Source: Neohoeflea coraliihabitans
GTDB taxonomy: Bacteria; Pseudomonadota; Alphaproteobacteria; Rhizobiales; Rhizobiaceae
DNA: 64,000 bases
Direction: 5' to 3'
Assembly: GCF_019334345.1 (NCBI RefSeq)
Contig: NZ_JAHWQX010000002.1
Coordinates: 682,001-746,000, forward strand
The number at the start of each line of letters is the position of its first letter. Positions within the stretch are counted from its first letter, which is position 1. Shown piece after piece: positions 35,534 to 36,867 of this stretch. Position numbers and translations under genes: made by a program. Below the pieces are notes generated by a model. The model worked only from the letters and a program-made list of their open reading frames with translations. It did no database searches and had not been told where the DNA came from.

Positions 35534-35562
35534 TTGACGCAAGCGCCGCCGGAGTATAAAGC
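35534..35562 (+). promoter_or_regulatory. Promoter of metZ
   Basis: TTGACG (35534-35539) with TATAAA (35555-35560, 15-bp spacer) or TAAAGC (35557-35562, 17-bp spacer). It lies just upstream of the SAM-II aptamer, so transcription would start next to the riboswitch. Confidence 0.55.
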
Positions 35563-35572
35563 CATTTTATCC

Positions 35573-35629
35573 CATGGTGATTTGGCCGACCGGCTTGCAG
35601 CCATGTTAAACAAGTTGCTAAAAGGTCGG
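35573..35629 (+). ncRNA. SAM-II riboswitch
   Basis: The aptamer matches the SAM-II pseudoknot. P1 pairs CATGGT (35573-35578) with GCCATG (35600-35605). The loop carries the conserved GATTT. The pseudoknot stem P2 pairs CCGACC (35586-35591) with GGTCGG (35624-35629). The conserved TTAAA and GCTAAA segments lie between. The element stands upstream of the methionine gene metZ, the classical setting in alphaproteobacteria, and is followed by an intrinsic terminator, so SAM should shut off metZ by termination. Confidence 0.93.
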
Positions 35630-35640
35630 GCGTTCGAGCA

Positions 35641-35669
35641 CCGGCTGGCATCTTGGCAGCCGGTTTTTT
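35641..35669 (+). terminator. Riboswitch-controlled intrinsic terminator in the metZ leader
   Basis: Stem CCGGCTG / CAGCCGG followed by six T residues, 16 bp before the metZ ATG. The 5' arm ACCGGCT (35640-35646) is an exact repeat of ACCGGCT inside the aptamer (35589-35595). The 3' arm AGCCGGT (35658-35664) could therefore pair with either, giving mutually exclusive terminator and antiterminator. Confidence 0.85.
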
Positions 35670-35685
35670 ATTGGACGCTGGAACG

Positions 35686-36867
35686 ATGACCACACGCAAA
35701 TTGAAAGCCGCAACGCAACTGGTGCATGGCGGTACGGCGCGCAGCGCCTACGGCGAGACCTCTGAAGCCCTGTATCTGACACAAGGCTTCGTCTATGACA
35801 GCGCCGAGGCCGCGGAAGCGCGTTTCAAGGGTGAAGAGCCGGGTTTCATCTACTCGCGCTACGCCAATCCGACCACCGAAATGTTCGAAAAGCGCATGTG
35901 TCTGCTCGAGGGCGCGGAAGATGCCCGCGCTACAGCCTCCGGAATGGCGGCGGTTAGCGCTGCGTTGATGTGTCAGTTGCAGGCGGGCGATCACGTTGTC
36001 TCAGCGCGCGCCCTGTTCGGCTCCTGCCGCTGGGTGGTTGAACAACTGATGCCGCGCTACGGCATCGAGGTGACGTTCGTCGACGGGCGCGATCTCAGCG
36101 CCTGGGAACAAGCGATCCGGCCGAATACGCGGGTTCTGTTCCTTGAAAGCCCGACGAACCCGACCCTCGAGGTGGTCGATATCGCCGCTGTCGCCGCGTT
36201 GTCACGACAGGCCGGTGCGACGCTCGTGGTCGACAATGTGTTTGCGACGCCACTGTGGCAGCGACCGCTGGAGCTCGGCGCCGATGTGGTCGCCTATTCG
36301 GCAACCAAACACATTGACGGCCAAGGGCGCTGCCTGGGCGGGATCATCTTGTCTTCGAAAGACTGGATCGATGAACATCTTCACGATTATTTTCGTCACA
36401 CCGGCCCGTCAATGTCGCCATTCAACGCCTGGACTTTGCTCAAGGGCCTCGAGACGTTGCCTCTGCGCGTTGCGCAACAGACCACCAGTGCCGGACGCAT
36501 CGCTGACATATTGGCCGATGAAGCAAAAATCGCGCGTGTCATCTATCCCGGCCGCAACGATCATCCGCAGGCGGCGATCTGCGCCCGACAGATGCAGGCC
36601 GGCTCGACCATGGTCGCATTCGAGTTGAAAGGCGGCAAAGCGGCGGCCTATGCGCTGCAGAATGCGCTGGAGATCATTCGCATTTCCAACAATCTCGGCG
36701 ATGCGAAAAGCCTGATCACCCACCCGGCGACGACGACACACAAGAATCTCAGCGAGGACATTCGCACTGAGCTGGGCATCGGGCCGGGACTATTGCGCCT
36801 GTCGGTCGGTCTCGAAGATGTCGATGATCTGATCGAGGATCTGAGCGTTGCCCTGTCAAAGGTCTGA
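35686..36867 (+). CDS. metZ: O-succinylhomoserine sulfhydrylase
   Basis: 393-residue PLP enzyme of the Cys/Met metabolism family. The PLP lysine is Lys208 in YSATKHIDGQG, with supporting motifs YSRYANPTT, ASGMAA and ESPTNPTLEVVDI. MetZ-type enzymes use sulfide to convert O-succinylhomoserine to homocysteine, bypassing MetB/MetC; the segment KHIDGQGRCLGG is typical of MetZ rather than MetB. ATG 35686 is placed right after the SAM-II riboswitch and terminator, so synthesis is repressed by SAM. The 3' end overlaps the convergent CDP-alcohol transferase gene by 12 bp. O-acetylhomoserine use cannot be excluded. Confidence 0.93.
   Translation: MTTRKLKAATQLVHGGTARSAYGETSEALYLTQGFVYDSAEAAEARFKGEEPGFIYSRYANPTTEMFEKRMCLLEGAEDARATASGMAAVSAALMCQLQAGDHVVSARALFGSCRWVVEQLMPRYGIEVTFVDGRDLSAWEQAIRPNTRVLFLESPTNPTLEVVDIAAVAALSRQAGATLVVDNVFATPLWQRPLELGADVVAYSATKHIDGQGRCLGGIILSSKDWIDEHLHDYFRHTGPSMSPFNAWTLLKGLETLPLRVAQQTTSAGRIADILADEAKIARVIYPGRNDHPQAAICARQMQAGSTMVAFELKGGKAAAYALQNALEIIRISNNLGDAKSLITHPATTTHKNLSEDIRTELGIGPGLLRLSVGLEDVDDLIEDLSVALSKV

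Follow-up and report, generated by a model that had tools for sequence, protein, structure and literature searches.

The window analysed here is a 64,000-nucleotide stretch of Neohoeflea coraliihabitans DNA in which a SAM-II riboswitch lies upstream of a methionine biosynthesis gene, metZ. The divergent upstream neighbour is a dCTP deaminase gene, and apaG is found further downstream, beyond metZ. The features of the leader and its gene are given below in window coordinates.

35534-35539, + strand: -35 element TTGACG, from the sequence; TTGACGCAAG is shared by all 16 relatives chosen for comparison
35557-35562, + strand: likely -10 element TAAAGC, weak, after a 17-nt spacer, suggested by by-eye comparison with relatives
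35564-35641, + strand: SAM-II (SAM_alpha) aptamer, RF00521 match over the full model (1-79), 77.2 bits, E 1.2e-15
35573-35578, + strand: P1 5' strand CATGGT, from the RF00521 structure line
35586-35591, + strand: P2 5' strand CCGACC (P2-5', pseudoknot), complementary to 35624-35629
35589-35595, + strand: first ACCGGCT copy, comprising the last 3 nt of P2-5' and GGCT of the conserved aptamer
35600-35605, + strand: P1 3' strand GCCATG, from the RF00521 structure line
35611-35631, + strand: predicted antiterminator 5' strand, made up of the core CAAGUUGCU (35611-35619) and GGUCGGGC (35624-35631)
35624-35629, + strand: P2 3' strand GGTCGG (P2-3'), doubling as the inner segment of the predicted antiterminator 5' strand, where it would form a duplex with the terminator 5' arm
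35638-35655, + strand: predicted antiterminator 3' strand GCACCGGCUGGCAUCUUG, made up of the terminator 5' arm and loop, with A35640 bulged and U35651 unpaired
35640-35647, + strand: terminator 5' arm ACCGGCTG, containing the second ACCGGCT copy
35657-35664, + strand: terminator 3' arm CAGCCGGT, containing AGCCGGT (35658-35664)
35664-35669, + strand: U-tract, T6, from the sequence
35686-36867, + strand: metZ, O-succinylhomoserine sulfhydrylase, 393 aa, NF005696, E 2.8e-226, 750.8 bits (cut-off 675)

Since the TTGACG box is kept in all 16 of these relatives, the RNA probably starts just before P1. The sequence TATAAA at 35555-35560 is an alternative -10 element, and a consensus promoter scan called no promoter here.

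SAM-II is a well-studied aptamer, and its presence in this leader is beyond doubt: the RF00521 covariance model is matched over its full length at 77.2 bits, against a gathering cut-off of 36, which is far beyond a chance match. P2, as a pseudoknot, is left unpaired by the covariance model, and in the sequence all six of its pairs are Watson-Crick. A first reading of the DNA from its sequence alone (the sequence-only reading) had proposed a SAM-II riboswitch before metZ with P1 CATGGT/GCCATG and P2 CCGACC/GGTCGG, and in these respects it was right. P1 agrees with the RF00521 P1 columns, P2 is present where it was placed, the two copies of ACCGGCT and the AGCCGGT were located exactly, and the downstream gene is identified as metZ by the NF005696 match. 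We infer that the metZ-leader RNA binds SAM.

Between the aptamer and metZ lies a predicted intrinsic terminator, a hairpin of -17.4 kcal/mol (z -3.7) that runs into the T6 tract, with the metZ start codon 22 nt 3' of its stem. The hairpin is far beyond chance, as none of 200 shuffles is as stable. A simple terminator scan did not list it because loops in that scan were limited to 3-8 nt and the loop here is 9.

The energy model also predicts an alternative pairing, 35611-35655, that would exclude both the ligand-bound aptamer and the terminator. Strand 35611-35631 forms 16 pairs with 35638-35655, the best duplex reaching -20.9 kcal/mol; as a hairpin, 35611-35655 has an energy of -18.9 (z -3.6), and one of 200 shuffles is as stable. 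This antiterminator occupies P2-3', the conserved strand before P2-3' and seven of the eight bases of the terminator 5' arm, so that neither P2 nor the terminator could form alongside it, and P1 is left alone. When P1 is enforced, the antiterminator is the best fold at each tested length from 35646 to 35661, the terminator fold is best at 35664, and at 35669 a longer variant of the antiterminator (-36.9) is just ahead of the terminator (-35.9). The longer variant spans 35606-35669 and adds pairs between the core and part of the terminator 3' arm. Blocking the aptamer strands, as a proxy for the SAM-bound state, leaves the terminator present and the antiterminator absent; in all fold energies P2 is represented as strands made unavailable, and there is no pseudoknot term.

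The pairing was examined across relatives drawn from three overlapping search sets, each of which includes the window's own genome: 61 relatives, 289 class-wide genomes and 397 order-wide genomes, in which 55, 141 and 308 genomes, respectively, have a match at E <=0.001. The metZ search covers the best 80 of 547 named loci. The loci fetched are a part of the matches, and 310 loci gave 306 distinct aptamers after leaving out L062, which has a truncated aptamer, and duplicates identical across 250 nt. By the set rule a terminator follows 249 of the 306 aptamers (222 of 251 for metZ), while the 57 without one belong to metZ (29), metA (17), metX (9) and other genes (2). Spacing and length limits retained 241 of the 249, and dropping rows with N and cutting redundancy reduced these to 140 non-redundant RNAs (metZ 120, metA 10, metX 8, other 2). 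One locus, L119 (G010:C12:68112-68267), carries tandem SAM-II aptamers 78 nt apart before metA with N at the junction, and is probably an assembly artefact.

Across the 140 RNAs, pairing between the aptamer 3' half and the terminator 5' arm plus loop has a mean energy of -17.5 kcal/mol in native RNAs and -15.0 when partners are swapped. None of 5000 permutations matches the native mean, and 135 of the native duplexes reach -10 or better. The effect of shared ancestry is limited in a matched-pair test, in which each RNA is set beside its nearest free relative and partners are swapped within the pair. Here, too, the antiterminator is coupled: native pairing is better in 45 of 69 pairs, worse in 17 and the same in 7 (p 1.1e-4, this and all other p values being uncorrected across several tests and subsets). 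The terminator stem, serving as positive control, gives p 2e-10, and the negative controls give 0.25 (reversed partner), 0.98 (3' arm), 0.94 (downstream sequence) and 0.27 (P2-5':5' arm). Within the window's order the coupling holds at a redundancy of 0.92 (p 0.001) and of 0.85 (19 better, 6 worse, 3 same, p 0.0008), and is weaker for metZ only (p 0.02); in the rest of the class it has p 0.048, where two negative controls stand at 0.07 and 0.09. The two halves of the antiterminator taken singly are marginal in the full set (core p 0.05, P2-3' p 0.013), and in three of four subsets neither is under 0.05. An earlier, smaller run on 98 RNAs (113 non-redundant RNAs minus 15 removed by hand) gave the same direction in all six groupings, with 0 or 1 of 5000 permutations as good in five of them; the exception was a strongly dereplicated set of 14 RNAs lying outside the order, where the antiterminator was not significant (1386 of 5000).

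One point against the antiterminator is that swapped RNAs often pair too, because the strands resemble each other: the 5' arm is captured in 133 of 140 native and 1153 of 1400 swapped RNAs, and the core pairs in 88 of 140 and 730 of 1400, respectively. Inspection by eye found core and loop sequences in the order such as AAGUCGC/GCGACUU, AAGUUGC/GCAACUU, AAUUCGC/GCGAAU and AAGUAGC/GCUAU; outside the order, among 48 of the 140 rows inspected, the core part is often weak, with P2-3':5' arm carrying the pairing. At one locus, L121 (G013:C10:970928-971005), the terminator stem, AATCCAG/CTGGATT, has lost its likeness to P2, yet the loop GCGACTT remains a perfect match to the core AAGTCGC. The core:loop half perhaps carries the antiterminator in this RNA, helped by a few pairs of P2-3' with flanking bases.

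A different exchange had been proposed in the sequence-only reading, which took the recurrence of ACCGGCT, in the aptamer (35589-35595) and in the terminator 5' arm (35640-35646), as showing the mechanism directly: AGCCGGU (35658-35664) could pair with either copy. The repeat itself is not significant. Of 2000 dinucleotide shuffles of the linker 35630-35685, 399 have a word of at least 7 nt in common with the aptamer, and the repeat is thus rejected as a sole argument. In the order, shared words of at least 7 nt occur in 16 of 91 relatives and are no commoner than with swapped partners (15%). In the window as a whole ACCGGCT has 25 copies, against 9.4 expected from dinucleotide shuffles. The terminator 5' arm probably resembles P2-5' because both must pair with P2-3', and this common partner would account for most of the observed repeat; in the metZ leader the resemblance extends to a shifted 7-mer.

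That AGCCGGU pairs with the aptamer copy in the absence of SAM, sequestering the 3' arm, and that this helix switches the RNA alone, is very improbable. The seven pairs are perfect and the best duplex between P2-5' and the terminator 3' arm reaches -15.6, but the helix 35589-35595:35658-35664 by itself is worth only -8.5 kcal/mol, and it crosses P1, so that P1 must open or a second pseudoknot must form. Its strands are 62 nt apart, with the competing terminator 5' arm 11 nt away, and its 3' strand is made last. Forcing this helix to form still yields a best fold that holds the 35611-35655 antiterminator. Among relatives, all ten of the close ones (L032-L041) retain both ACCGGCT copies and six of these ten retain AGCCGGT, and in the all-swap test P2-5':3'-arm pairing is equalled by 1 of 5000 permutations over the 140 RNAs. 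In the 14 RNAs outside the order 9 of 5000 are as good, a better result there than that of the 35611-35655 pairing. Pairing links P2-5', P2-3' and both terminator arms to one another, so that some of the all-swap signal is expected, and between matched relatives no coupling is seen (13 better, 13 worse, 43 unchanged, p 0.49, in 69 pairs with low power). The matched-pair test is weak for these strands because the region varies little, and it gives even the established P2 pairing a p of only 0.079. As the main exchange the AGCCGGU pairing is not supported, and the switching pair named in the sequence-only reading is most likely not the principal one. The broader logic of that reading, a terminator opposed by an antiterminator, is supported by the hairpin, the T6 tract and the alternative pairing found in relatives.

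Folds without constraints are evidence against a simple thermodynamic switch. From 35661 on, with no ligand present, they include the terminator but lack P1, and the full-length fold (-39.0) has a nested P2-like hairpin in place of P1 and lies below every computed antiterminator state (-34.5, -36.6 and -36.9). Downstream of P1 the antiterminator and terminator states are 0.7 kcal/mol apart in the window, and the terminator state is the lower in energy for 96 of 140 relatives (median 1.8 kcal/mol). With states this close in energy, the order of folding would have to decide.

The ligand-free terminator of the full-length fold is also what would be expected if the terminator were constitutive and SAM acted elsewhere, on RNA stability or on the promoter, as has been suggested in part for metA of Sinorhizobium meliloti. 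In that organism the terminator downstream of the metA riboswitch is, in the main text of PMC9373788, not predicted to be SAM-responsive, and the same source reports that metA and metZ promoter activities also drop at high SAM. Against this explanation, which we consider quite improbable, stands the coupling, in relatives, between the aptamer strands and the terminator 5' arm with its loop, which a constitutive terminator would not need, and the S. meliloti metZ copy is itself predicted to be a transcriptional switch (PMC9373788).

The strongest rival is a composite structure, whose fold beats that of P1 plus antiterminator; it is nonetheless unlikely. Here the 35611-35655 antiterminator would lie inside an outer helix of P2-5' with the terminator 3' arm, so that four strands swap partners and P1 opens. 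With the antiterminator enforced and P1 free, this is the best fold (-36.6, compared with -34.5 when P1 is kept), and the bare helices give -30.0 against -26.2. The composite nevertheless requires the opening of P1, which is made first and which, in a metX SAM-II RNA, is protected both with and without SAM (PMC10907184). Between near relatives no separate coupling of the outer helix is seen, the test having little power. The helix proposed in the sequence-only reading may, on these modelled folds, act as such an outer helix around the antiterminator.

The reading that we prefer, with a probability of about two in three, is that the SAM-II riboswitch acts on metZ through conditional termination of transcription, with 35611-35655 as the antiterminator. 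In the absence of SAM, P1 would form and the P2 pseudoknot would not hold. Once the RNA extends past about 35646-35655, the core CAAGUUGCU and the P2-3' segment GGUCGGGC would zip up with the terminator 5' arm and loop as these emerge, and the resulting 16-pair hairpin would allow RNA polymerase to read into metZ. In the SAM-II structure the core strand wraps the ligand. With SAM bound, P2-5' would pair with P2-3' and the core would be locked, leaving the 5' arm free to pair with 35657-35664; transcription would then stop at the U-tract and release an RNA of about 100 nt. This order of folding, and termination in the cell, are what the model predicts.

SAM-II riboswitches with terminators before metZ are already known (PMC1273637, PMC2258182, PMC9373788); the paper that first described SAM-II (PMC1273637) already noted terminators following it, and PMC2258182 surveyed them. 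The metA motif of Corbino et al. 2005 (SAM_alpha, RF00521; PMC1273637) shares with the metZ leader its aptamer sequence and structure, a methionine gene downstream, a promoter just upstream and a putative terminator between P2 and the ORF, and compared with the motif as given in the main text of that paper no aptamer difference was found in the metZ copy here. The word 'antiterminator' has 0 occurrences in the same main text. A parallel in gene, class and product is the S. meliloti metZ SAM-II with its RZ sRNA, where a SAM-induced terminator is likewise predicted: at high SAM this metZ-leader RNA of about 100 nt goes up and metZ mRNA goes down (PMC9373788). Translational SAM-II, as in the Sargasso Sea metX RNA, and SAM-V likewise have a pseudoknot whose P2 forms with SAM, but in them it hides the ribosome-binding site, whereas here the start codon lies 22 nt past the terminator stem.

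A second SAM-II is present in the window's own genome, upstream of metA (L002, G000:C1:984576-984653, minus strand). This copy is without a long T-run ahead of the start codon and has a GC-rich inverted repeat, CACCGGC ... GCCGGTG, just 5' of a purine-rich AAGAGGAG stretch. Judged by its sequence, the output of the metA copy may be translational.

A broader proposal, which we put forward tentatively and rate at rather less than even odds, is that alphaproteobacterial SAM-II riboswitches of the terminator type share one bipartite antiterminator, made of a helix between the conserved core AAGUNGC and the terminator loop and another between P2-3' and the 5' arm. Support for this arrangement is strongest within the window's order and declines beyond it. 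It is not spelled out in the main-text passages on SAM-II that were covered, and an explicit comparative antiterminator is the only possible addition to this known riboswitch. Taken alone, the window offers a case of ordinary gene regulation, in which a methionine gene is probably switched off when SAM is plentiful. A specific antiterminator model drawn from comparison makes the switching step testable by a few mutants and, if the bipartite proposal is true, the expression platform would read both SAM-ordered strands at once, giving a mechanism that can be tested across the class.
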